A stretch of 43,435 nucleotides of DNA from Lachnospiraceae bacterium (GTDB taxonomy: Bacteria; Bacillota; Clostridia; Lachnospirales; Lachnospiraceae): contig JAFQCK010000114.1 in the NCBI GenBank assembly GCA_017416465.1, forward strand, positions 1 to 43,435. Direction: 5' to 3'. The notes below the pieces were generated by a model. That model worked only from the letters and a program-made list of their open reading frames with translations, was not told the DNA's origin and did no database searches. This document shows, in pieces, positions 1-43,435 of the stretch (the first letter of the stretch is position 1; each line of letters starts with the position of its first letter). Position numbers and translations under genes: made by a program.

Positions 1-1480
1 ATTAAAGGCATCTGTACCTGCTGGTAAGGGTCTTGGCGCTTCTCCCGGTGCTGCTTGCGGTAAGGTTGTATTCACTGCTGAAGATGCAGAAGAATGGAAC
101 AACCGTGGCGAAAAGGTTAACCTCGTTCGTTTGGAAACTTCACCTGAAGACATTACAGGTATGAAGGCTTCTCAGGGTATCCTCACCGTTCGTGGTGGTA
201 TGACAAGCCACGCTGCCGTTGTTGCACGTGGTATGGGTACCTGCTGCGTTTCTGGTTGTGGCGACATCGTAATGGATGAAGAAAACAAGAAGTTTACACT
301 CGCTGGTAAAACATATAACGAAGGCGACTATATTTCAATCGACGGTTCTACCGGTAACATCTACGACGGCATTATTCCTACCGTTGATGCTGAAATCGCT
401 GGCGAATTCGGCCGCATCATGGAATGGGCTGACGAATTCAGAACCCTTAAGGTTCGTACCAATGCTGATACACCTGCTGACGCTAAGAAGGCTCGTGAAC
501 TCGGTGCTGAAGGTATCGGTCTTTGCCGTACCGAGCATATGTTCTTTGAAGCTGAACGTATCGCTGCTTTCCGTGAAATGATCTGTGCTGACACCGCTGA
601 AGAGCGTGAAGTTGCACTCCAGAAGATTCTCCCCTATCAACAGGGCGACTTTGAAAAGCTTTATGAAGCACTTGAAGGCAACCCCGTTTGCATCCGCTTC
701 CTTGACCCGCCTCTCCATGAATTCGTTCCTACTGAAGAAGCTGACATCAAGGCTCTTGCTGACGCTCAGGGTAAGACCGTTGCTGATATTAAGGCAATCA
801 TCGCTTCTCTCCACGAATTCAACCCCATGATGGGTCACCGTGGCTGCCGTCTTGCAGTTACCTATCCTGAAATTGCTAAGATGCAGACCGCTGCTGTTAT
901 CCGTGCAGCAATCAACGTTAAGAAGGCTCATCCTGACTGGAACATCGTTCCCGAAATCATGATTCCTCTTACCGGTGAAGTTAAGGAAATGAAGTACGTT
1001 AAGAACGTAGTTGTTGCTACCGCTGATGCTGAAATCGCAGCTGCAGGTGTTGAACTTAAGTACGAAGTTGGTACCATGATGGAAATCCCCCGTGCTTGCC
1101 TCACCGCTGACGAAATCGCTAAGGAAGCTGAATTCTTCTGCTTCGGTACTAACGACCTTACCCAGATGACCTTCGGCTTCAGCCGTGACGACGCTGGTAA
1201 GTTCTTAAGCGCTTACTATGACACCAAGATCTATGAAAACGATCCCTTCGCTAAGCTCGACCAGACAGGCGTTGGTAAGTTAATGGATATGGCTGTAACT
1301 CTTGGTAAGAAGACCCGTCCTGAAATCCACTGCGGTATCTGCGGTGAACACGGCGGCGACCCTGTTTCTGTTGAGTTCTGCCACAAGCTTGGCCTTGACT
1401 ATGTATCATGCTCACCTTTCCGTGTGCCGATCGCACGCCTCGCTGCTGCACAGGCTGCTATTCGCGAAGCGCACAAATAA
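1..1480 (+). CDS. ppdK: Pyruvate, phosphate dikinase (C-terminal part)
   Basis: The reading frame is open from base 2 to the TAA at 1478-1480, so the gene starts left of the window; about 492 codons are present. The enzyme interconverts pyruvate, ATP and Pi with PEP, AMP and PPi in the cytoplasm. Seen here are the end of the swivelling phosphohistidine domain, with the motif GGMTSHAAVVARGMG (catalytic His codon at 209-211), and the PEP/pyruvate-binding TIM barrel ending in HCGICGEHGGD, whose Cys is the family's proton donor. Codon use (GCT, GGT, CGT, GAC, AAG) is visibly more biased and GC-richer than in all downstream genes, as expected for a highly expressed central-metabolism gene. A strong terminator follows, so it is not cotranscribed with what comes next. 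Identity is very secure. Confidence 0.97.
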   Translation, partial: LKASVPAGKGLGASPGAACGKVVFTAEDAEEWNNRGEKVNLVRLETSPEDITGMKASQGILTVRGGMTSHAAVVARGMGTCCVSGCGDIVMDEENKKFTLAGKTYNEGDYISIDGSTGNIYDGIIPTVDAEIAGEFGRIMEWADEFRTLKVRTNADTPADAKKARELGAEGIGLCRTEHMFFEAERIAAFREMICADTAEEREVALQKILPYQQGDFEKLYEALEGNPVCIRFLDPPLHEFVPTEEADIKALADAQGKTVADIKAIIASLHEFNPMMGHRGCRLAVTYPEIAKMQTAAVIRAAINVKKAHPDWNIVPEIMIPLTGEVKEMKYVKNVVVATADAEIAAAGVELKYEVGTMMEIPRACLTADEIAKEAEFFCFGTNDLTQMTFGFSRDDAGKFLSAYYDTKIYENDPFAKLDQTGVGKLMDMAVTLGKKTRPEIHCGICGEHGGDPVSVEFCHKLGLDYVSCSPFRVPIARLAAAQAAIREAHK

Positions 1481-1590: not shown

Positions 1591-3327
1591 TTACATCCAT
1601 ATACTAACATTTAAATCAACCCAATTATAAAGACGTCGTTTTGTCGAAAAACTATACAAATACTTTTTTGCTTCTTCAAATGTAATTTTAAACTCGGCTA
1701 TTTTCATTCTCTCCCGGTCTTTACTTTCATTCATTGTATCCGAAACACGCAAATACCATCTAAATTCATTTTTTGCTACCCATATTTTTTCAATAAACGC
1801 CTCAACTACACTTTCAGGGATTTGTGAACCATCGCACTTTGCAACTTGTTGAAGTTTATTTTTAAGCATTTTTAAAGCGGCTTCAAAATCCTCGGTTGAC
1901 TGTTCTACCTTTTTAGGGGTTAACTTTTCGATTTCATCCGTTAAAGATTCTAACTTTGCTTCAATCTCTGCCTTTCTTATCTTGAAATGTTTGCTGTCAA
2001 TATCTCCATCTTCTCGCATTTCAAATAGGTTTGCTTTCTTACGGTTATATTTTTCTATTTCTTCCTGTTTGCAGCGTATAATATCAGTATTATCGGGTAT
2101 TTCTTCTTGGTCGGCTATATGCTTTTCCAACATAGTATATGCAAGGTTAATTGTCGACTCTATATTTTCTATATACCCCGAAAAAATATACTTTGCCATC
2201 ATATCAAGTTTCCAATCAGGAATAAATGGCGAATCACAAGCACCATCAATAGATAATCCTCGTTTAATTCTTTCATTGTAACTTCCTAAATTAACAGAAG
2301 TATAACATTGATAATATACACCTGAGTGTCGACCCTTTCTAGCGTGAAAATGTTGATTAAATTTTTTTCCACATTGACATATAAGTAATTTGCCCCATAG
2401 TGTTCCTTGTGGCTTCTGCCCTGATTTTTTCGTATCAGATATACTTTTGGTTTTTCTATTCATCATTTCAATGACTTGTTTATATTCTTCTTCAGTTATT
2501 ATAGGTGTATGGTTGCCTTTCACTTTCACATATTCTAATACCCCGTTATTTTTAATTTTTTGTTGTTTTAAATAATCTGGAGTATATTCTTTATGATATG
2601 TAATTATACCGCAGTAAAAGGAATTTTTAAGCATTTTAGAAATATACGCAGGAAACCATTTGGTTTTTCCCATTGATGTAAGCCGGCCTTCTTTTTCTAA
2701 CTCATATTGTATTTTTGTTACACCCATTCCACTCAAATACATATCAAAAATCATTCGAACAGTTTTAGCTTGTTCAGGATTAATAACTAAATCCTTGCCA
2801 ACCCTATCATATCCAAGGATATTGCCGTTTCCGTATAAAACACCATTTTCCATTGAAGTTTGTTGACCCGCCTTAACTCTCAATGAAGTTTTTCGGCTTT
2901 CGTCCTGTGCTAGCGTCGCCATTATTGTTAAACGAAGTTCTCCATCGCCGTCAAAAGTTTTAATGTTATCGTTAATAAAAAACACTTCTACGCCGTATTC
3001 CTTAAGTTTTCTAGTAAACTGCAATGTATCAACGGTATTTCTCGCAAAACGTGAAACTTCTCTAGTTATTATCATATTAAATTTTTTCTTTTTTGCATCT
3101 TCTATCATTTTCATAAATTGAGGACGTTTCTCAGCAGAAGTTCCAGTTATACCTTCATCGACATATTGAGCAACCAATGTCCAGTCAGGTCTAGCGGTTA
3201 ATATCGGCTTATACCAATCCATTTGATTTTCTAATGCTGATAGTTGAGCCTCGTGTTCCGTAGAAACACGTGCATAAATAGCAACGTCTCTTTTTTGAAA
3301 ATCTGAATTTAATTCGTAAGCGTACAT
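1591..3327 (-). CDS. Large serine recombinase (site-specific integrase)
   Basis: This 578-aa protein has the architecture of large serine integrases of clostridial mobile elements. An N-terminal resolvase catalytic domain spans about residues 13-155: YARVST with nucleophile Ser22, the DEGITGTSAEKRP loop, and SRFARN. A recombinase domain follows (about 170-290), then a zinc ribbon with Cys317, Cys319, Cys341 and probably Cys364, and a coiled coil rich in Glu and Lys (about 400-495) that in this family controls synapsis and directionality. The gene ends only about 30 bp from the ppdK terminator hairpin, the usual position next to an attachment site. It starts with ATG behind a good Shine-Dalgarno (AAGGAGTTGGAAA). 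The upstream 59-aa ORF ends 12 bp before the start, so the two are probably cotranscribed. The reading frame is intact and the catalytic residues are present, so it is likely active. Confidence 0.95.
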   Translation of the reverse strand: MYAYELNSDFQKRDVAIYARVSTEHEAQLSALENQMDWYKPILTARPDWTLVAQYVDEGITGTSAEKRPQFMKMIEDAKKKKFNMIITREVSRFARNTVDTLQFTRKLKEYGVEVFFINDNIKTFDGDGELRLTIMATLAQDESRKTSLRVKAGQQTSMENGVLYGNGNILGYDRVGKDLVINPEQAKTVRMIFDMYLSGMGVTKIQYELEKEGRLTSMGKTKWFPAYISKMLKNSFYCGIITYHKEYTPDYLKQQKIKNNGVLEYVKVKGNHTPIITEEEYKQVIEMMNRKTKSISDTKKSGQKPQGTLWGKLLICQCGKKFNQHFHARKGRHSGVYYQCYTSVNLGSYNERIKRGLSIDGACDSPFIPDWKLDMMAKYIFSGYIENIESTINLAYTMLEKHIADQEEIPDNTDIIRCKQEEIEKYNRKKANLFEMREDGDIDSKHFKIRKAEIEAKLESLTDEIEKLTPKKVEQSTEDFEAALKMLKNKLQQVAKCDGSQIPESVVEAFIEKIWVAKNEFRWYLRVSDTMNESKDRERMKIAEFKITFEEAKKYLYSFSTKRRLYNWVDLNVSIWM

Positions 3328-11555: not shown

Positions 11556-12557
11556 TTATGCCATTGTTTCAAGCATTTTGTTATTAACTTCACAAGTAAG
11601 TGTATCACCCGATATATATCTTATAAATTCTTCTGCTATATATTCTGCCATACGGAATGTTTCACGTCCGCCACTTCCAGCAATATGAGGTGTAATAAAA
11701 CAATTGTTTAAAGAAAAAAACGGATGCCCCGTTTGAAGCGGTTCATATGCAGTAACATCTAAAACTGCCGCCAAATCATTTCGTTCATTCAATGCTCTTG
11801 CCAAATCATTTTCAACCACCTGTGCACCACGTCCTGTATTAATAAACGTAGCATATTTAGGCATTGACATAAAATGTTTATAAACAAATATACCTTGAGT
11901 TTGTTCGTTGTTGGCAAGATGATTTGATACCACATTACATGTTGAAAAAAGTTCATCCAATTCTACTTTTTGAACCCCCAACTGCTTTGCTTTTTCATCA
12001 GACAAAAATGGGTCAAAAACCTTCACATTCAATTTGTAATTTTTCAGCATTTCGCAAACTTTTGCACCAATCATTCCTGCGCCGACTATACCAACATTGG
12101 AATCATAATTTCCAATATAATTTTCCCTTATTATATATGCTTCTTTTGTTTCTCCTTCGCTCATTTTTTTACATGCTGAAAAAAATCTTTTTCCAGCAAG
12201 TATTATTTGAGCAACCGTATATTCGGCGACAGGAATTGCGTTTGCAGACCAAGCCGAAAAAACCCTTACACCACAATTGATAAATGGTCGTGCAAAGAAT
12301 TGAACTGTGCCCGCAGCATAAAATACACACTTTAAATTAGGAAATACTTGTTTAATTTCAATTTCAGTAAATGTTGGCATACCCCAAGTTGAAAAAATAA
12401 ATTCAACATCAAAAAACTCACCGATATGTGCCATCACATATTCCTTATCATATACTTCATCAATAAAGCCGGCGTTAACCTTTAGAAATTCAATAGTATT
12501 ATCCGAATAAACTTTCTTATAATTATTCTTATCATTACATATGAAAACAGATTTCAT
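11556..12557 (-). CDS. D-isomer-specific 2-hydroxyacid dehydrogenase
   Basis: A 333-aa NAD(P)-dependent oxidoreductase. The Rossmann motif VGIVGAGMIG lies at about residues 154-163. The catalytic residues of the family are present: Arg in NTGRGAQVVENDL, Glu in DVTAYEPLQ, and His in FITPHIAGSGG. It reduces a 2-oxo acid or oxidises a D-2-hydroxyacid. The start ATG abuts the stop of the isomerase gene, whose last codons (GGAGGAGGC) provide the ribosome site, so the two are tightly coupled. In this operon it may handle a keto acid formed from a uronic or aldonic sugar. The substrate is not predictable. Confidence 0.9.
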   Translation of the reverse strand: MKSVFICNDKNNYKKVYSDNTIEFLKVNAGFIDEVYDKEYVMAHIGEFFDVEFIFSTWGMPTFTEIEIKQVFPNLKCVFYAAGTVQFFARPFINCGVRVFSAWSANAIPVAEYTVAQIILAGKRFFSACKKMSEGETKEAYIIRENYIGNYDSNVGIVGAGMIGAKVCEMLKNYKLNVKVFDPFLSDEKAKQLGVQKVELDELFSTCNVVSNHLANNEQTQGIFVYKHFMSMPKYATFINTGRGAQVVENDLARALNERNDLAAVLDVTAYEPLQTGHPFFSLNNCFITPHIAGSGGRETFRMAEYIAEEFIRYISGDTLTCEVNNKMLETMA

Positions 12558-13310
12558 TTAAACGCCTCCTCCGGCAAGTAACTTTAAATACCTACTCTCA
12601 TCAATCAAAGAATCGATTTTATCATCAGGCATAAATTCCAAAAGTAAAGTTTTGGTTTTTGAAAATTGCGCAAGATAAGCCTTCCAATGTTCTATTCCCT
12701 CGCCTAATGAAAGCCGTTTATCTTTTACCCAATTAAAAATATGTATGTTTTCAACGAAAGGGCTTATTTCCTTAGCAAATACAACATTTTCTTCAAAGCA
12801 CAAAAACGATTGCGGCTGCCAATACATACGAAATGCATCACTATTTACTGCCTTCATTAGTTCCAAAGAAGATTTGGCAGTATTTGTATATGTACCGCTA
12901 TGACACTCCATACAAAGCTTCACATTATTTCCTTGAGCAATCTCCGCCAGCCTTCTACATTCATCGAATAATTCCGCTTTTTCTGATTCGCTGTATTTTT
13001 CAGAATCCTTATTTCCACACCAAAGTCTCAAAACATCTGTGCCCAATATTTGAGCAGCACGAATATAAGCTTCCAATTCTTTTGTTTTTGTGGTGCCTAT
13101 CACAAAATAGGTACCGTAAGAGGAACACACAATATCGTTTTGATTTTGTAATTCAGAAAGAAGTTTTAAATTTTCAATGTTATCTTTGGGAGCGTGAATA
13201 TCGCTTCCCCATTCAATATAAGATAGACCGACCTTTTTCATCGCAATAAGAATTTCCTGTGGTGATTTATCTCTAAATGAAACTGAAACCAAGCCTAATT
13301 TATAATTCAT
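12558..13310 (-). CDS. Sugar phosphate isomerase/epimerase (xylose-isomerase-like TIM barrel)
   Basis: A 250-aa AP-endonuclease-2-type TIM barrel. It begins with LGLVSVSFRDKSPQEI and has barrel strands SYIEWGSDIH, VKLCMECHSG and NIHIFNW, with Glu and His residues in the metal positions typical of hydroxypyruvate isomerases, tagatose epimerases and related enzymes. It is cytoplasmic. It lies 12 bp downstream of the flavoprotein gene and directly joined to the dehydrogenase. Members of this superfamily isomerise ketoses or open 3-keto-sugars, including in some C-glycoside cleavage systems. The partner beta subunit of those systems is not seen here, so the reaction remains open. Confidence 0.85.
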   Translation of the reverse strand: MNYKLGLVSVSFRDKSPQEILIAMKKVGLSYIEWGSDIHAPKDNIENLKLLSELQNQNDIVCSSYGTYFVIGTTKTKELEAYIRAAQILGTDVLRLWCGNKDSEKYSESEKAELFDECRRLAEIAQGNNVKLCMECHSGTYTNTAKSSLELMKAVNSDAFRMYWQPQSFLCFEENVVFAKEISPFVENIHIFNWVKDKRLSLGEGIEHWKAYLAQFSKTKTLLLEFMPDDKIDSLIDESRYLKLLAGGGV

Positions 13311-34888: not shown

Positions 34889-37105
34889 TTAATGGATTTG
34901 TTCATAACGAGTTATACGTAATGTTTTCCCAGCCTCAATTTTTACTTTTATGATTCCATCTTCATTTTTTACGATTTGCTTTTGACTATTAGAAGATATA
35001 ATAATGGCATTTGAAAGAAAAGAATTATAAACGTTTAATATTATATCCTTTTCGCTATTCAAACTTATCTCAGCCAAACCATTAGTATCGCGAATGGCTG
35101 AAACCAAAACTCCATTCCTGCTTCGAAGATTAGTAAATGATATTTTTCGGTCAGACCACTTATCAGGAATAGCGGGAAATAACCTTATATATCCCATATG
35201 GTCTTGCAACAACATCTCGTGCAAGGCATCACAAAAACCAAAGGAAGCTTCAAGTGTAAATGGTCGATAATGGTAATTAGAATAACCACGGTTTTTAAAA
35301 TCGCCATTTAGATGAAAACCATTTTCCTCAACAAAGCCATCGGCAAACTTATAAAGATTCTTATAGGCGCCATTACCATTTAGTGCCATAGCGTATATTT
35401 GTGCTGCCGTTCCAAAACTAAAACCGACCCATTCAAATGTGCCTAATCTTTCTAATTCTTTTAATGTACAATCATAAATTGCCTTGTTTTTTTGTGAATC
35501 ATAATTAATCTGATGCAACGGATAAAGGCACATTAAATGTGATAAGTGTCGATGTGACTCGTTTAATGCTTCATCCTTAGCCAATAAAATTTTATCACCA
35601 TCAAGTGCTATATCATCTAATTTTTCAAATAAAGCCTTCCAATGTCGGTTTGATTCCACTTTTCCTAAAATTTTCGAATATTTTACGAGAGTATCAAACA
35701 AATATCTTAATAAAGATAAATCAAAGTTAGAATTTGGAGTCAAATATGCTTCTTTACAATTATCGTGAATCTCGGGTGATGTCGAAAGTGGCAAAAACAA
35801 CTTTCCATCCTGCTCCACAAGTATTCCTTCTATGGCTTTTCCTATTTCTTCAAAAAAAGGATACGCTCGCGTTTTTAAAAATTCAATATCACCTGTATAT
35901 AAATAATACTCATCAAAACTTTGCGCCGTCCAAATAGCCATAGTTGGTGCCTCAGTATATTGCGGCCACCCCCCCATTAATTTTCCATCAATTGTTGATG
36001 CACCGGGAATTAAGATACCGTCTACGCCAAAGAAATCGTGCGCATATGTACTAAAGGCTTCGCGCAGGCTCCACAAATAATCCAAAAACACTTTACCTTC
36101 AAGTAAGTGATTAGCCTTTAAATATGATTGATAAGATAGTTGTGTATTTGTATCATGATGATAATCGCCTTTCCATGGTGGAAGCCTATCGTTATCTGCT
36201 GTCCAAACGCCTTGTAGCGGCATAGGATAAAAGCCCTCACGACTGCAGGAAGCAAACAAATACCACGAACGGTAATACACGCTTTCTATCATTGGATCGC
36301 CTATATCAATTTGCGATTTTGACCAATACTCATTCCACCACAAAGTATGCTCTTCAAATAATGCTTCGTAACCCTTGCCCGCACATTTAATAAGTTGTTT
36401 CTTTGTATCCTCCAAGTCGTTACTTGAATCATTATTAGTTGTAATGGCAAAATATAATTCACTATATTCTCTAAAAGTTTTTTGTAATACAACAATCCCA
36501 TATTCAAAGTCAGTATGTGTTTTTTGCCTATAATAGTAAAATCCATTTTCAGATATAATTTCCGCCAATGGATAATCCATACACGGTGAATCGTTTAGTT
36601 TAGAATCTTTAGATATATAATCAGGAATATGCAAATCAAGTGAATAATCACCATAAACTCGCATAACGCCTATATATTCCGTTGCACTTGCAAATCCGGA
36701 AATGCGAATTTTATTGTTTTCATCTATCACATATGCTATCGCGTTTTCTATAGACAATAAAAAATCAGGAACAAACTCATCCTTAAAATTTAATTCTATT
36801 CTACCCGCAGTAATCTTAGATGGATATGCACTTTTGCGGTTATAATCATTAAACATGCGTAAAAACTCTTGCCAATCGGATTCGTTTTCACTCTTAACAA
36901 GATGTTCAAGATTTTTATAATTAAAACCTTCTTCATTTGTCAACGGTGCAACTCTAGTATCCCATAAATCAACACGGTCTAACGAAATACGTATATTATC
37001 TGTACCATAAAGCAACATTCCAATTTTACCATTTCCTAACGGTAACGCTTGGTCCCAGTTGGCAATGCCTGAATACTGCTTGATATCATAATCTTTCAAA
37101 TTCAT
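34889..37105 (-). CDS. Glycoside hydrolase family 95-like (alpha-fucosidase/galactosidase type)
   Basis: Start ATG 37105 (MNLKDYDIKQYSG; GGTGGG just upstream) is preferred over GTG 37132, which would overlap the previous gene; 738 aa. An N-terminal beta domain with ALPLGNGKIGMLLYG is followed by an (alpha/alpha)6 barrel. PPWKGDYHHDTNTQLSYQ carries the catalytic Asn region, STSPEIHDN the Glu, and ESHRHLSHLMCLYPL is the GH95 signature. A C-terminal beta domain ends at KTLRITRYEQIH. Family members release alpha-L-fucose or alpha-L-galactose. There is no signal peptide. A truncated paralogue lies at 22.8 kb. The gene sits 19 bp behind the BtrH-like gene, so it seems to be read from the exporter operon. 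Confidence 0.9.
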   Translation of the reverse strand: MNLKDYDIKQYSGIANWDQALPLGNGKIGMLLYGTDNIRISLDRVDLWDTRVAPLTNEEGFNYKNLEHLVKSENESDWQEFLRMFNDYNRKSAYPSKITAGRIELNFKDEFVPDFLLSIENAIAYVIDENNKIRISGFASATEYIGVMRVYGDYSLDLHIPDYISKDSKLNDSPCMDYPLAEIISENGFYYYRQKTHTDFEYGIVVLQKTFREYSELYFAITTNNDSSNDLEDTKKQLIKCAGKGYEALFEEHTLWWNEYWSKSQIDIGDPMIESVYYRSWYLFASCSREGFYPMPLQGVWTADNDRLPPWKGDYHHDTNTQLSYQSYLKANHLLEGKVFLDYLWSLREAFSTYAHDFFGVDGILIPGASTIDGKLMGGWPQYTEAPTMAIWTAQSFDEYYLYTGDIEFLKTRAYPFFEEIGKAIEGILVEQDGKLFLPLSTSPEIHDNCKEAYLTPNSNFDLSLLRYLFDTLVKYSKILGKVESNRHWKALFEKLDDIALDGDKILLAKDEALNESHRHLSHLMCLYPLHQINYDSQKNKAIYDCTLKELERLGTFEWVGFSFGTAAQIYAMALNGNGAYKNLYKFADGFVEENGFHLNGDFKNRGYSNYHYRPFTLEASFGFCDALHEMLLQDHMGYIRLFPAIPDKWSDRKISFTNLRSRNGVLVSAIRDTNGLAEISLNSEKDIILNVYNSFLSNAIIISSNSQKQIVKNEDGIIKVKIEAGKTLRITRYEQIH

Positions 37106-37124
37106 AAGACCCACCACACTTCTG

Positions 37125-38096
37125 TTATACACCTTGTATGCTATTCACCAAGTGTTGCATAATCTCTTTTTCTATTACTGTTATATTCTTGATAATGTCA
37201 GAAATTCTTCGCAACACATCTTTGTTAAGTGATAAATTGTATTTTAAGAACAAATTATGTACTATTATTGATTTTTGATATATCTCATAGTATTCATTTA
37301 AAATATTTAAATCGGAAATGTGACCTAACTCGGTTAAGATTTTTATGCGCTCAAACATTAATTTATGATGCTCCATATAACACCTGCTAGACCTAAGGTC
37401 TGCCTTGTATTCTAGTTGCAAAATATTATTTGCAAACGCAACCCAAGCATTAAGACCAAATATTTCGGGTCTTGGTTCAAAATTTTTATTGTGACACGAA
37501 AACAAATAATCCTCAAGCTTTTTCTTTATATGTAAAATATTTATTTTCGCTTCATACTCGCTATTAATCACATAATAATTCACAGATGTCTTCATACCGT
37601 CATTTTTTATTACGGCATCCAAATAATCATCATATGATATATCAAAAAATTTATATGTCTCATCCATCATATAGGCCGCCGACTGAAACGTTCTGTTTTT
37701 TTCATTATAACCGAAAATAACGTAATCGTGATTGTAATGAAAATTTTTATACGCATGCTTACCGGGTATATAAAATTCATCATAACCACCTGTTATATAA
37801 CACCCCTCACGCAGCATAGACTTATTATAACAAATTAAATCCAATCCCTCAGCTCCTAATAAACTAGGTTTTATAAAAAAATGCTGCATAAACGTCAAAC
37901 CATCTTTTGCGGACCAAATATCATCATCTATTGAATCCAATGTTCCGTTTGCTCTTAGTATGCAATTTATAAGCTTGTTGCATAACCAAATATCATAATT
38001 TTTTATATTGGGTTTAATTATACCCAATGGAAAAGATTTATTATGATATGTTTTCACTTCTATATCAAGGCTAAATGGCAAACTGCGTTTTTCCAT
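37125..38096 (-). CDS. Protein resembling the BtrH N-terminal family (natural-product-associated)
   Basis: Start ATG 38096 (GTGGTGA 5 nt upstream); 323 aa. The middle part (about residues 95-165) has GCYITGGYDEFYIPGKHAYK, NHDYVIFGYN and FFDISYDDYLDAV. This is the pattern (control of access, Asp-x-Tyr, His-rich loop, GY turn, then ISYDDYLDA) of papain-fold BtrH_N-like proteins found in antibiotic and peptide clusters. The N-terminal His-Cys catalytic signature of that family is not evident, so it may be inactive or diverged. The C-terminal 120 residues are helical. No transmembrane segment. It lies 10 bp behind the second ABC exporter gene. The family call is tentative; the link to the exporter by operon structure is strong. 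Confidence 0.5.
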   Translation of the reverse strand: MEKRSLPFSLDIEVKTYHNKSFPLGIIKPNIKNYDIWLCNKLINCILRANGTLDSIDDDIWSAKDGLTFMQHFFIKPSLLGAEGLDLICYNKSMLREGCYITGGYDEFYIPGKHAYKNFHYNHDYVIFGYNEKNRTFQSAAYMMDETYKFFDISYDDYLDAVIKNDGMKTSVNYYVINSEYEAKINILHIKKKLEDYLFSCHNKNFEPRPEIFGLNAWVAFANNILQLEYKADLRSSRCYMEHHKLMFERIKILTELGHISDLNILNEYYEIYQKSIIVHNLFLKYNLSLNKDVLRRISDIIKNITVIEKEIMQHLVNSIQGV

Positions 38097-38118
38097 ATAT
38101 ATCACCACAAATCAATTT

Positions 38119-39903
38119 TTAAGTATATTTACTTGCCTGCAAATTAAATAGCTCAGCATATTTGCCGTTTTGTCTCAAAAGTTCGAAATGAGAACCTTGC
38201 TCAATGATGTGTCCATCACCGATAACGAGGATCTTATCTGCAAGTATTGTATTTGAGAGACGATGCGAAATTGTTATAGAACTTTTGCCCTCACTCAAAT
38301 GATAGAGTTGTTCAAATATTTTGTCCTCTGAAATTGGGTCAAGCGCGGCGGACGGTTCATCAAGAATCATATATTCACTATCCTTAAAATACGCACGGGC
38401 AAGTCCAATAAGTTGCCATTGACCACCCGAAAGATCTTTACCGTTATCTGCATAGTAGCGACCTAGAACACTATCAAAACCGTTTTCCCAATCTTTAATA
38501 ACCTCACTTGCACCACTGATATCGCAAGCCCTTTTCAATTTTTCATCATTAAATCGCTCGTCAAAATCTGAAAGCGCAATGATTTCACGAAGCGGCAAGC
38601 AGTATGTAACATAATCTTGAAACAGCACTCCAAATACTTTGCGCACAGCATAAATATCATATTCTTTTAAATCCACGTCATCGAGCTTTATACATCCTTC
38701 TTCGGGATCGTAGAAACGGAACATCAGCTTGATAATCGTAGATTTCCCCGCACCATTGAGTCCTATCAACCCAATTTTTTCATTCGGCTCTATTGTAAAA
38801 GAACAATCCTTTAACACGTACTGTTCTGCATTTGGATATCGAAAAAATACATTGCAAAACTCAATTTTTGGATTATTTGAAGGCTTCAGCGTTCCACTCT
38901 TTTCCACCTCGGGCTCAATATCCATAAATTCTTGTAACTCGATTAAACGTGTATTATTATTGAGAAAACTATTAACATTATTCATCAACGCTTGTGCTTG
39001 GGCACGCAATCTTGATACCATACTAAGATTGTATTGCAGGTCACCGATACCAATATGTTTGTTTACAACATCGAATACCGATACCGTAAGAACTAAAAAC
39101 TCACTTGATACATTGATAATCATAATCAGCGTATTGATGATGTTGTGTTTAATATCCTCAGCCTTATTAATTTTGTAAAGTTTCTGCCATGTTTCCTTAT
39201 ACTTATCAATAAAATAGGAACCAATATTATTCAGCTTAATCTCAAATTGGATATCATTGTTGAAGAAAACACCACTATAATAATCTTTTTTTCGATTATC
39301 ACGGAGCTGTTCTTTTTCCATCTCTAATTTTCGTTCAGTACGTTTTTTGTTATAAAGCATAAATGGTATTAAGAGAATAAGTGTAACAATTCCAAGCCAC
39401 CACTTGTAAGTGCAAACGATGACCAATGTTGCTATAACATTAATAAAAGCTGAAAGAATATCAAACACCAACCAAGTCATCTGCGTCATAACACCGAAAT
39501 TGTTTCTTGCGTGGCGAACTTTATCACCCATTTTTGCAGAATCAAAGAATGACAAGTCCATACGAGATGTTTTTTCCATCATAACCATCTCAATGTAGAA
39601 TTGTAATTCATCACCATAACGGCTATTCACATATGTGTTGAATTGAGCCAATAAATATGTTGTAAGCTGCAAAGATAGGTAAACAGCGAGACAAACTATT
39701 ACAGTTTTACTGCTATTTTGATAATCAACAATTCCGTTCAATACTTCCTTCCACAACCATATATTCACTAACGGAATAGCAGTAGTAGAAACAAGGATCA
39801 ACAACTTCATTAAAAAATAGAACTTAGAGGCCAAAAAGCTTGTTTTTATTCCGAACCATACATTTTTGAAGAGTCCAGAGAAAAATCGCCTGATTTTATT
39901 CAT
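38119..39903 (-). CDS. ABC exporter half-transporter (NisT-like), subunit 1
   Basis: A 594-aa protein with an N-terminal transmembrane domain of about six helices (residues 20-330) and a C-terminal ATPase. Walker A is GLNGAGKST, Q-loop FGVLFQDYV, signature LSGGQWQLIGLARA, Walker B MILDEPSAALD, and switch His in TISHRLS. The SGGQWQ signature and lack of a C39 peptidase domain are typical of lanthipeptide exporters such as NisT and SpaT. It starts 3 bp behind the partner gene with GGAGG inside that gene's end, so the pair most likely makes a heterodimer. The substrate is probably a small peptide, inferred from the subtilisin-like gene upstream. Confidence 0.93.
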   Translation of the reverse strand: MNKIRRFFSGLFKNVWFGIKTSFLASKFYFLMKLLILVSTTAIPLVNIWLWKEVLNGIVDYQNSSKTVIVCLAVYLSLQLTTYLLAQFNTYVNSRYGDELQFYIEMVMMEKTSRMDLSFFDSAKMGDKVRHARNNFGVMTQMTWLVFDILSAFINVIATLVIVCTYKWWLGIVTLILLIPFMLYNKKRTERKLEMEKEQLRDNRKKDYYSGVFFNNDIQFEIKLNNIGSYFIDKYKETWQKLYKINKAEDIKHNIINTLIMIINVSSEFLVLTVSVFDVVNKHIGIGDLQYNLSMVSRLRAQAQALMNNVNSFLNNNTRLIELQEFMDIEPEVEKSGTLKPSNNPKIEFCNVFFRYPNAEQYVLKDCSFTIEPNEKIGLIGLNGAGKSTIIKLMFRFYDPEEGCIKLDDVDLKEYDIYAVRKVFGVLFQDYVTYCLPLREIIALSDFDERFNDEKLKRACDISGASEVIKDWENGFDSVLGRYYADNGKDLSGGQWQLIGLARAYFKDSEYMILDEPSAALDPISEDKIFEQLYHLSEGKSSITISHRLSNTILADKILVIGDGHIIEQGSHFELLRQNGKYAELFNLQASKYT

Positions 39904-39906
39904 AAA

Positions 39907-41712
39907 TTAATCCTCCTTTATAGTGTATTTTTCGCGTTGGAGGTTGTAAAACTTTGCATATAGACCGTTAAGTGCAACAAGCTCGTCATGTGTGCCTTGC
40001 TCGGTAATCCTCCCTCCGTCAAGCACTATAATTTTATTAGCCATACGAGCACTTGATATTCTGTGAGATATCATAATTCCTGTTTTGCCATCGGATATCG
40101 ATTCAAAATTCTTAAATATACGATCTTCAGCCTCTGCATCAAGGGCCGCAGAGGGTTCATCAAAAATAATGATTGGCGCATTTTTGAAATAAGCGCGAGA
40201 TAGAGCAATCTTCTGCCATTGTCCTTTGGAGAGTTCGGTTCCCTTGTCATCAAATTGGCGAGTCATAAAAGAATCCAATCTGTTTTCAAGTTTGGGTTTA
40301 ATATCCTCATATACACCACTTTGTCTTAATACACTTTCTATTTCATCACTATCGTCAATACGTTCAAGTGAGGAAAGTGCGATGTTTTCCCGCAAGGTCA
40401 GTGGATATTGCACAAAGCTTTGGAAAAGTGCAGAAAAAAGTTTTCTAACATCTCTTATATCATAATCAGACATAGGATATCCGTTGATTAAAATTTGACC
40501 AGATTCAATTTCATAAAGACCAAGCATCAGTTTGATAATCGTGGATTTACCCGAGCCGTTGATTCCGACGATTGACAGTTTATCTCCTTTATTTATTGTA
40601 AAAGAAACACCGGTCAGTACGTATTTATCTGTGTGCGGATATTTGAAATACACATTATCAAATGTCAAAGAGTCAAAATTTTCAATCATTCTAAATTGTT
40701 GTCGAACGTTCTTTTCGGTTGTTTCAACAAATTGGATGAATTCAAAAAAACGCTTCATGAAATTAGAACGAACAAGGTAATATTCTACGCACAAATCAAA
40801 CACACTTTTAAAAGATTCTGTTGCACCTATAGCAAGGCTAATGTACAATGCAACATCACCTACACTAATTGTTCCGGATATGGCATCATATGCAACAAAA
40901 ACCACAAATGCAATTTCACCCAATCGACGAATCAGTTCTGTAAAAAGTAAGGCGATACATTTCCGCTTATCTATAGCTTTATTTTTTTCTATATAAATAA
41001 ACTTTTCTTTTTGGTATCGTTCTTTCAGTGGAGATGTCAAATCATACATCCTAATATCTTTAGCCGGAGACTCGTTGGTAAGCATCCAACGATAATAACT
41101 TAACCTACGGGCATCAGGAGCCATTTTATATCGTAACCAAGCCATCTTATCATTGAAATATGCATTTAAAATAATGCTTGGCACTGTAATTATGATATGA
41201 AGAGTAGAAAAAAGCAAACTATATCCTGAAAGAACTATATATGAAATAACAAATGAATATATAACTGATACTATCTTAATAAAATCTAATGAAAATTTAA
41301 CGGCAATATCATCAGTTGTCGAAACATCATCTATCTGATCTCTACCCTCTGAGGAATCTAAAAATGACATAGGAAGATTTACCAAATTACTGATTAAGTC
41401 ACACCCATACTGATGCCTCGCCTTTTTCACTATATCCAGAAACAGGAACGAAAGGTACGCGTTTATAAAGTGCATTATCACAAGGATAAAAATATATAAT
41501 AATATATATAATAAAGCGACATTTATTACAGTATCATTTACACTTAAACTATCGATGATCAGTTTCAACGAGTAGCTACTTAGTAACGGCAGTAAAACAC
41601 TCATTAGAAATAGCCCAAAGTAAAGAAAGATATGATATCTGTTGGAACGTAGAATCAATTTAAATGAATAACACAATGACTTTGCAAGTATTTTCATTCG
41701 TTTCATTTTCAA
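39907..41712 (-). CDS. ABC exporter half-transporter (NisT-like), subunit 2
   Basis: A 601-aa protein starting with TTG 41712 (GAGGTG 7 nt upstream). The transmembrane domain is at about 15-320, with HIFLYFGLFLMSVLLPLLSS as the first helix. The ATPase has Walker A GINGSGKST, signature LSKGQWQKIALSRA, Walker B IIFDEPSAALD, and His in MISHRIS. Both ATPases keep the catalytic Glu and His, so neither site is clearly degenerate. It is transcribed ahead of subunit 1. Upstream lie a promoter-like pair (41791-41820) and a 10-codon ORF, then the S8-DUF1611 gene. It probably exports the product matured by that protease. Confidence 0.93.
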   Translation of the reverse strand: MKMKRMKILAKSLCYSFKLILRSNRYHIFLYFGLFLMSVLLPLLSSYSLKLIIDSLSVNDTVINVALLYILLYIFILVIMHFINAYLSFLFLDIVKKARHQYGCDLISNLVNLPMSFLDSSEGRDQIDDVSTTDDIAVKFSLDFIKIVSVIYSFVISYIVLSGYSLLFSTLHIIITVPSIILNAYFNDKMAWLRYKMAPDARRLSYYRWMLTNESPAKDIRMYDLTSPLKERYQKEKFIYIEKNKAIDKRKCIALLFTELIRRLGEIAFVVFVAYDAISGTISVGDVALYISLAIGATESFKSVFDLCVEYYLVRSNFMKRFFEFIQFVETTEKNVRQQFRMIENFDSLTFDNVYFKYPHTDKYVLTGVSFTINKGDKLSIVGINGSGKSTIIKLMLGLYEIESGQILINGYPMSDYDIRDVRKLFSALFQSFVQYPLTLRENIALSSLERIDDSDEIESVLRQSGVYEDIKPKLENRLDSFMTRQFDDKGTELSKGQWQKIALSRAYFKNAPIIIFDEPSAALDAEAEDRIFKNFESISDGKTGIMISHRISSARMANKIIVLDGGRITEQGTHDELVALNGLYAKFYNLQREKYTIKED

Positions 41713-41845: not shown

Positions 41846-43435
41846 TCATGAAAAGAAAGATATTATTAGTTTGTACAATTTTTCCATATCACCGTCATCG
41901 GTAATATTATATAAGGGTATATGAAATTCAGAAATAAACAATTCTTGAACTTTGCAAAATTCTTTAGATGGTCTAAGTGTTTTTAGTATATCAATAGAAT
42001 TATTACCATTATTTTTTACAGCAAACGGAATGGTTGCCAATGCAATAACTTTTGAATTTACAGATGACTCTAAAAAAGAAATTGTTCTATGAATATATTC
42101 AAAAGAATCAAATAAATTTACACAAAGAATTATACAGTCTGGCAATGAACCTAGTAACAGAGCATATTGTGATGTTGGAAATTGCGAAATGTTGCCATAA
42201 TCATATGCTATAGTTCCTGATTGTGAACCAACTATTATAATATCTTTATTGTTTAAATTCATATTATGTATTGCTGAATTTATATAGCGAACCGCATCAT
42301 CGTTATTGATATATACAGTCGAATTGTATCCCATTGGAAAAGCAAACTCCATACCATATAATTGTGATGTTGGTTCTGTACCTAACTGACCAACAGAAAA
42401 CCCATCTTTTAATAACAATTCTCTTAGTTTCAATTGAAGTGTGAATTTTCCCTGCTTTGAACTAGTTCCAAACACTCCTAAAACCGGTTTTGTAATTCTA
42501 TGTAACATACCAAGTCTATTCGGCGGCAAATCGTTAATTGTTATTAAAGGAGTATATAAATTCTGACACTCAGTTAAATCGAGATAAGAAACATCATCAA
42601 AAGAGAATATATTTTTGTGATGTTTTAATGCATCAGCTATTAGATTATCAATATATTTATTATCTCCCAACACAGAAGACAATTCATCCATATGACCAAT
42701 GATTAGTGTGTCAAAATTATTATAATTTATTTTATCAATATTTTTAATTACATAATCATTGGTATAATTAGCATTTAATAAATGATTAGTTGTTGCACCT
42801 ATCTTCGCAGAATATTTCGTCTCATATATATCTGCAATTTTAAAATTAAGCAAACGTTCATATCTTACTAAGTTTTGCATTTCTTTGCCAAAAGGAAAAA
42901 GTGCAGCAACATTAATATTAAATGGCAATTTTTGCATAGAAAAAACATTCAAGGAATCATTGTTTTTAATGGATATTTTTTTAAAATTATTTAACAATTG
43001 TTCTTTTGTTAATTTTTTCCGAGAAAAGAACATCATTTCCGCTATTTTAGCTGTTGTATGAGCACATGCAAAGCTATTCCCCGAAAGGAAAACACTTTGA
43101 GGATTATCCCATGCCAATCTTTGTAGACTGCCTTTTGCACCAACATTTACAACTTGATCTTCAAAATACTCAAAATCGTCAACTTTATGACAAGAATTTC
43201 GATTCACAACTCCAATTACATTATTAAATGCTGCGGGATAAGATATGCTTCCCGCATTATCAAATGCTGAAACAATAATAGTACCTTCTGATGTCAATTT
43301 CGAACAAACGTCATAGAGCTCTTGAATATGATTGCATTCAGACACCCCTAAACTCAAGTTAATTATATCAGGATGAATACTTTCATATATGTAAGATAAT
43401 GCCGATATTAAAGTATTTTCATCTATTCCATTTTC
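41846..43435 (-). CDS. Subtilisin-like (S8) protease fused to DUF1611 P-loop domain (N-terminus outside window)
   Basis: The frame is open to the right edge (ENGIDENTLISALSYIYESI, DIINLSLGV), so 529 codons are the C-terminal part. S8 features: NLSLGVSECN, GTIIVSAFDNAGSISYPAAF (Asn of the oxyanion hole) and nucleophile LSGNSFACAHTTAKIAEMMF. The catalytic Asp and His are outside the window. After a linker, a Rossmann-like part (NFDTLIIGHMDELSSVLG) is followed by the DUF1611 NTPase: Walker-A-like GVFGTSSKQGKFT, QLGTEPTSQLYG, DIIIVGSQSG and a C-terminal LPDCIILCVNLFDSFEYIHR. DUF1611 members elsewhere have been linked to N-acetylation of D-glutamate; a fusion to a protease is unusual. There is no membrane segment in the visible part. 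It precedes two peptide-type exporters. Confidence 0.85.
   Translation of the reverse strand, partial: ENGIDENTLISALSYIYESIHPDIINLSLGVSECNHIQELYDVCSKLTSEGTIIVSAFDNAGSISYPAAFNNVIGVVNRNSCHKVDDFEYFEDQVVNVGAKGSLQRLAWDNPQSVFLSGNSFACAHTTAKIAEMMFFSRKKLTKEQLLNNFKKISIKNNDSLNVFSMQKLPFNINVAALFPFGKEMQNLVRYERLLNFKIADIYETKYSAKIGATTNHLLNANYTNDYVIKNIDKINYNNFDTLIIGHMDELSSVLGDNKYIDNLIADALKHHKNIFSFDDVSYLDLTECQNLYTPLITINDLPPNRLGMLHRITKPVLGVFGTSSKQGKFTLQLKLRELLLKDGFSVGQLGTEPTSQLYGMEFAFPMGYNSTVYINNDDAVRYINSAIHNMNLNNKDIIIVGSQSGTIAYDYGNISQFPTSQYALLLGSLPDCIILCVNLFDSFEYIHRTISFLESSVNSKVIALATIPFAVKNNGNNSIDILKTLRPSKEFCKVQELFISEFHIPLYNITDDGDMEKLYKLIISFFS

Follow-up and report, generated by a model that had tools for sequence, protein, structure and literature searches.

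The closest described system to the one reported here is that of the CLI_3235/CcpM peptide clusters (e.g. SacP23 in Paenibacillus polymyxa), which combine a radical S-adenosylmethionine (SAM) enzyme (TIGR04068), a TIGR04066 protein, a carrier-like protein (TIGR04069), an S8 subtilase and ATP-binding cassette (ABC) proteins. In the available excerpts of PMC4573289 and PMC10731318 the S8 protease and TIGR04066 are encoded by separate genes, as they are in excerpts of the two PubMed Central (PMC) papers found to mention TIGR04066, and an excerpt of PMC10731318 offers an immunity role for TIGR04066 as a guess. Here we analyze a window of 43,435 bases, i.e. the whole contig C101 of a Lachnospiraceae bacterium genome, in which an S8 protease and a DUF1611/TIGR04066-type protein are fused in one reading frame (41846-43435, minus strand). 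With a probability that we put at roughly 0.5, this fusion would be a bifunctional cytosolic maturation enzyme of a carrier-protein-linked pathway resembling those of ribosomally synthesized and post-translationally modified peptides (RiPPs).

The locus resembles the CLI_3235/CcpM clusters in having the same functional parts per cluster and a Cys-rich core (excerpts of PMC10731318 and PMC4573289). It differs from them in that their S8 and TIGR04066 proteins are unfused, with a broken P-loop in the stand-alone TIGR04066, and in that their radical SAM enzyme belongs to another clade than the one on contig C30 of the window's genome (see below). A further likeness is to lachnocin (NF038169 peptide, NF038170 radical SAM). 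In genome G104, a divergent S8 and TIGR04066-like fusion (stretch L036, 8257-9927) lies beside an NF038170 radical SAM enzyme (825 bits) and a lachnocin peptide, and a second divergent fusion, its P-loop lost, is found in stretch L037 (8662-10323). These lachnocin-type fusions differ from the window's in the loss of the P-loop and of K/E residues, and no match to the carrier and papain-fold proteins described below was found in L036, L037 or the third stretch of this type, L040.

An earlier note on this DNA had known of no described system with such a fusion, and part of that statement stands. No family model for the fused architecture occurs among the NCBIfam and Pfam matches, neither 'lachnocin' nor 'DUF1611' together with 'peptidase S8' was found in PMC full text, and no NCBIfam equivalog scored above its cut-off for 11 fused relatives and the window, the C30 radical SAM enzyme, four precursor candidates or 28 members of the 327-residue family treated below. 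The partnership of S8 and TIGR04066 is, on the other hand, known in unfused form from the CLI_3235/CcpM clusters and as a divergent fusion from the lachnocin locus in L036, and is therefore not unprecedented. As judged from its sequences, the recurring gene set, for which curated models are lacking, seems designed for the production of small modified peptides, and its parts and partnership were already known.

Domain architecture of the fusion protein

The frame is open across 529 amino acids (aa) and exits the contig at its right end, so that the window holds the C-terminal 529 aa of the protein and the N-terminus lies past the contig end. The serine half of the S8 (subtilase) part occupies 42968-43435 on the minus strand (S8 profile, aa 2-156; Ser codon at 43073-43075), and Peptidase_S8 (PF00082) matches aa 9-147 at 3e-9, with 37 bits against a Pfam cut-off of 21.8. 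The DUF1611/TIGR04066-type two-domain region lies at 41849-42916 (minus), where the DUF1611 P-loop domain (PF07755) matches aa 314-439 at 6.6e-10, with 39 bits against a Pfam cut-off of 25. TIGR04066 matches aa 177-527 and covers model positions 3-358 out of 361 at 90 bits, below its NCBIfam cut-off of 200. Since this match is nearly full length, the C-terminal part represents a whole two-domain DUF1611/TIGR04066 protein, beyond the P-loop alone. Two motifs were read directly from the sequence, namely the P-loop GTSSKQGKFT (42440-42469, minus), which is kept in relatives, and the Ser nucleophile motif GNSFACAH (43058-43081, minus). The frame is thus a genuine S8 and DUF1611 fusion, as the earlier note had read it: one continuous frame with the serine half of the protease and a complete DUF1611-type domain, both recovered by hidden Markov model searches above cut-off.

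Across the phylum, PF07755 was matched in 48 out of 398 genomes at E 0.001, with nine above cut-off. The window's match was the strongest of these, which together with the agreement in fold rules out a chance P-loop match.

The catalytic Ser is present in the window, and the positions of the S8 Asp and His lie past the contig end. In the alignment of relatives, Asp and His are kept in all 58 rows that cover them and Ser in 60 out of 60, and 52 of 60 rows have the oxyanion Asn typical of ordinary subtilases. QhpE is the best NCBIfam match of the S8 part, at 73 bits in the window (aa 7-152), 92-140 bits in complete relatives and 64 bits in L042; likeness to QhpE-type S8 proteases thus goes together with scores below the 165-bit cut-off, and no gene for a quinohemoprotein was noticed, although no search was aimed at one. 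A confident structural model of a complete relative matches subtilisins as well as DUF1611 structures, a fold agreement in line with the earlier assignment. The rows for the fusion in VIA-align were taken up by subtilisins and are uninformative on other families.

Fused and stand-alone forms of the DUF1611/TIGR04066 domain

DgcN, a member of the DUF1611 group, is an N-acetyltransferase that acetylates D-Glu. It is placed in the D-Glu pathway in excerpts of PMC12363236 and PMC10845958. In the structural model, this region adopts the two-domain DUF1611 fold, resembling the DUF1611/DgcN structures 2g0t and 2obn in fold while differing from them in sequence (14-20% identity); a Gln of the fused domain aligns with 2g0t. 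The DgcN equivalog NF041892 gave no match to the window at 0.1, and in two fused relatives (L104 and L105) only weak ones, 28-29 bits against a cut-off of 480. The window's domain further differs from DgcN in being fused to an S8 protease within a peptide operon.

In a tree of the domain, constructed with a quick method, the fused forms (56 plus the three lachnocin-type proteins) separate from 17 stand-alone forms with a Shimodaira-Hasegawa-like approximate likelihood ratio (SH-aLRT) support of 98. Duplicates were removed from the tree and the residue table, including two distinct stand-alone rows (L045 6243 and L048 14251), and the stand-alone protein of L023, whose P-loop is intact and whose long branch falls among the fused branch, was left out of the 17. 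Ten residues (K262, E263, G399, T400, Q404, G405, K406, E430, Q481 and D519, numbered as in the L057 protein) are identical in all 56 fused rows, which span Bacillota, Spirochaetota, Latescibacterota and Gemmatimonadota. In the 17 stand-alone rows, Q481 is replaced by Pro in 15, E430 by Lys, Arg, Asn or His in 16, G405 by Asn or Asp in 10 and D519 by Tyr or Ala in 12, while the P-loop Lys and G399 are each retained in 14. An intact P-loop motif was present in the window and in eight of the 11 fused proteins retrieved by a profile search without any motif pattern, the other three being those of L036, L037 and L040, where it is lost apart from the Lys. These patterns suggest an intact catalytic apparatus in the fused branch but, for the most part, not in the stand-alone one.

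A different, second fusion of TIGR04066 was seen in genome G152, where a 726-aa frame (L047, 9006-11186, minus) combines a radical SAM protein with a TIGR04066-like C-terminal part.

Occurrence of the fused architecture

Relatives were collected in two sets. In the first, 299 genomes from the window's own family (Lachnospiraceae) were searched for TIGR04066, with matches in 25 of them, and 11 of the resulting stretches (L032-L042, from nine genomes) contain one open reading frame (ORF) with both S8 and TIGR04066-like parts. The second set consists of 61 loci in GTDB species genomes, found with an alignment of eight fused proteins; in 59 of them the S8 profile and the DUF profile match the same ORF. 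Of the two others, L109 is not matched by the S8 profile and L115 not by the DUF profile, and among the 59, the DUF part of L113 is split across two ORFs. Incomplete rows are those of L098, L107, L112 and L117, which are cut by contig ends, and of L103, which is without the N-terminal part. According to their record titles, the 61 loci come from Lachnospiraceae, other Clostridia, Paenibacillus, Tumebacillus, Sutcliffiella, Treponema, other Spirochaetota, Latescibacterota and Gemmatimonadota, many of them as metagenome bins. Isolates are also represented, e.g. Anaeromicropila populeti, Tumebacillus flagellatus and three Paenibacillus species, and with 59 out of 61 loci holding both parts in one ORF, an assembly error joining two genes is ruled out. 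The 27-aa precursor of a Gastranaerophilales bin (L112, 1950-2033) is identical to those of the Clostridia loci L097 and L101, probably through a binning mix-up; its taxonomy is therefore doubtful, and the phylum was left uncounted.

At the scale of the phylum (398 genomes drawn) the fused architecture is rare. The A2 scan gave matches in 34 of these genomes at 1e-30, with the window's match alone reaching the C-terminal end; the match in G309 covers positions 4-380, and all remaining ones lie within positions 1-243, i.e. the S8 part. A first scan with the window protein found no relatives in 29 stretches, and a plasmid search returned one record, matching the S8 part only.

Operon neighbors and the candidate second half of the operon

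Downstream of the fusion and on the same strand lie two ABC exporters of 601 aa (39907-41712, minus) and 594 aa (38119-39903, minus), as the earlier note had observed. Both have ABC_membrane and ABC_tran matches and neither has a Pfam match to a C39 peptidase, so C39-type exporters were rejected. They are followed by a 327-aa protein (37125-38108, minus) with the papain-like fold of CcbD, CtaG and AziU3, for which 0 Pfam families at E 10, no NCBIfam match and 0 PDB sequence matches at E 1 were found. Its fold agrees with that of BtrH/CcbD/CtaG-like proteins, and BtrH_N is matched by 11 of the 28 family members at E up to 1 (best 8e-6). The resemblance to CcbD, CtaG, AziU3 and BtrH, which act in carrier-dependent amide formation, is one of fold, at about 10% identity. 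The site His is kept, and in the sequence alignment the window protein has His22 in the column of the catalytic Cys, where five of the 28 members have Cys.

In relatives, the frequent neighbors of the fusion are ABC exporters, a phosphopantetheine-type carrier protein, a radical SAM/SPASM enzyme and the papain-fold protein, in mostly co-directional gene sets. The carrier-protein serine was found in 45 out of 46 cases by a loose pattern allowed anywhere in the ORF, which in some rows matches another place. No radical SAM match was obtained with our own profile in any of the ten Latescibacterota and Gemmatimonadota loci (L100, L102, L104, L105, L107, L108, L110, L111, L113 and L117), which perhaps use a different modifying enzyme.

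The missing half of the window's operon is probably held by C30, a contig of 4,864 bases from the same genome, although its adjacency to C101 is something that we infer. C30 was located via its radical SAM protein, which is 38% identical to that of L033. The contig also encodes a carrier protein (PP-binding, 6.7e-7), an ABC exporter and a 57-aa Cys/Gly-rich precursor candidate with a leader box, and its gene order matches that of L038 (radical SAM, carrier, ABC, fusion). At its very end an S8 protein begins, with 57 aa that include the motifs VDSG and GHGTA; this start was picked from the ORF list and afterwards scored 7.1e-7 against the S8 profile. The ends of C30 and C101 share an exact overlap of only four bases, and the C30 frame stops 16 bases short of the contig end, which could reflect raggedness of that end, variation between strains or a disrupted gene. 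When the first 110 aa of the L057 protein were searched against the window's own genome, C101 and C75 (E 0.26) were matched and C30 was not listed.

The nearest family of the C30 radical SAM enzyme is TIGR04463, at 183 bits against a cut-off of 525, while CcpM (TIGR04068) scores 71 bits against 500 and NF038170 is absent from the 25 families shown. The 57-aa candidate had no NCBIfam match at 0.01, the CLI_3235 family and NF038169 included. Components that the earlier note had suggested looking for have accordingly turned up: modifying enzymes and precursor candidates both on C30 and in relatives, and the S8 Asp and His in relatives and probably also on C30.

Precursor peptide candidates

The candidate precursors start with MKK or alike; a stretch rich in Lys and an aromatic box follow, and the core is short and in most cases contains Cys. 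A pattern of this kind was found on the strand of the fusion in 35 out of 61 loci (40 of 388 candidate starts, of which at least three, L058 6782, L073 13624 and L076 6516, appear spurious) and on the opposite strand in none (0 of 194). When Tyr and Glu were left out of the definition, 53 Lys-rich ORFs were obtained, of which 41, in 38 of 62 stretches, carry a [YF]x(1-3)E box, some of them (L087 4224) apparently spurious, and 12 do not. In 15 loci, no more than 350 bases separate the start of the peptide gene from that of the fusion ORF downstream. In five candidates from stand-alone-type systems the box, as judged by eye, is of the AY type or similar, and that Glu is missing. L079, L083 and L086 (Treponema and other Spirochaetota) each have several candidates, some of which reach 82 aa and contain many Cys.

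Proposed function and alternatives

In the pathway that we favor, the radical SAM enzyme would cross-link or otherwise modify the core, and the S8 domain would remove the leader in the cytosol, at or near the YxxE box and ahead of export. Removal ahead of export is suggested by the window exporters being without a C39 match and by the catalytic Asp of the fusion, which lies so near the N-terminus that no space is left for a signal peptide and propeptide. The DUF1611 domain, via its P-loop, would act on the freed end or on a carrier-held group, most likely in an N-acyl transfer or activation step, while the papain-fold protein may make or assist an amide bond and the ABC proteins would export the product. 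Fusion would hold leader cleavage and the DUF1611 step on one peptide. That cleavage and a second step act on the same peptide, as proposed earlier, remains the best reading of a fusion lying beside exporters in an apparent peptide-maturation operon, although the chemistry of DUF1611 is one that we infer, whereas operon membership is well supported. We regard the operon and the leader-protease role as highly probable; that the DUF1611 domain carries out acyl or carrier chemistry is a tentative assignment. In a more specific and rather improbable version, S8 would cut just before the Glu of YxxE, and the DgcN-like domain would acylate the freed N-terminal Glu with an acyl group delivered from the carrier protein via the CcbD/CtaG-like protein. 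After the fact, this version gains support from the precursors, since those of the fused branch have YxxE and the five from stand-alone systems do not, in parallel with the kept and lost DUF1611 residues. If true, peptides capped at the N-terminus, and often modified by a radical SAM enzyme, would form a class of their own, and the orphan DUF1611/TIGR04066 domain would acquire a peptide as its substrate.

Several observations weigh against the enzyme reading. Stand-alone TIGR04066 relatives mostly lack the P-loop Gly and Thr, E430, Q481 and D519, so that a role common to both branches need not be catalytic, and the three lachnocin-type fusions keep only the Lys of the motif. Conservation of the P-loop among the 61 loci was partly selected for, as their retrieval used two peptide patterns of which one contains GTS[SQ], and the precursor pattern was devised after viewing examples. 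The link between C101 and C30 is no more than probable. The window's 327-aa protein has no family match of its own, the BtrH_N matches of its family were counted at the permissive threshold given above, and with Cys in five members and not in the window's, an ordinary acyl-enzyme route is unlikely there. Furthermore, 19 of the 61 loci, several of them cut short, have no radical SAM match, a loading enzyme may lie elsewhere in the genome, and neighbor families present in 3-8 loci were left unannotated.

The alternatives have overlapping odds, which need not sum to one. The DUF1611/TIGR04066 part could be a scaffold that binds the leader or docks the radical SAM enzyme, carrier and protease without chemistry of its own. 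Most of the P-loop and other residues are gone from stand-alone TIGR04066 proteins and from lachnocin-type fusions, yet both are retained in peptide-maturation clusters, and this persistence of sister proteins without an intact P-loop keeps the idea alive; the TIGR04066-radical SAM fusion of G152 also fits a docking role. Identity of the ten residues in 56 out of 56 rows across four phyla exceeds what a scaffold needs, and we consider this alternative somewhat unlikely. Less likely is a merger of two neighboring genes in an ordinary CLI_3235/CcpM system, its chemistry unchanged. The parts are the same (TIGR04066, S8, carrier-like protein, radical SAM and ABC), and both leaders share a Lys-rich start and an aromatic box. 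Against this, the C30 radical SAM enzyme is nearer to TIGR04463 than to CcpM, the DUF1611 residues are kept and not lost, the box is YxxE and not of the AY type of the five peptides inspected, and the extra papain-fold protein is unmatched in L044-L048, five stretches taken from four genomes for comparison. Least probable of all, in our view, is a PatG-like logic in which the S8 part would ligate or macrocyclize peptides and not simply remove a leader. An intact triad, short cores and weak PatA/PatG matches in several fused relatives (about 18-22 bits) would suit such a function, but these scores are far under the 421-bit cut-off and lower than those of QhpE and mycosin, and the oxyanion Asn is that of ordinary subtilases.

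TIGR04066 has been an unexplained companion of Cys-rich peptide clusters, and the fused branch appears to offer an intact DgcN-like version of it in one chain with the leader protease. Gene sets that combine the fusion with a carrier protein and an amide-forming fold point to a testable tailoring step, and the leader box and the fusion profile can serve as sequence handles for mining.

Genomic context

On C30 (L053), the C-terminal part of a galactarate/altronate dehydratase (2-889, plus strand) has a G+C content of 0.43, compared to 0.29 for the peptide genes beside it, a contrast which suggests that the operon may be inserted. Scans of the window for tRNAs and Rfam families gave 0 and 0 matches. 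A serine recombinase with Resolvase and Recombinase domains is encoded at 1591-3327 (minus) in the window, a possible sign of a mobile element. The longest frame of a glycoside hydrolase (GH) family 95 glycosidase (34889-37132, minus) overlaps the 327-aa gene by eight bases, and the window also encodes GH2, GH39, GH123 and GH4 proteins, i.e. a glycan-use region borders the peptide operon. Lastly, just upstream of the carrier protein in L033 are a short basic peptide (12246-12404) and a 197-aa membrane-like protein (12379-12972, both minus), which we take to resemble AgrD and AgrB and which might provide quorum control.
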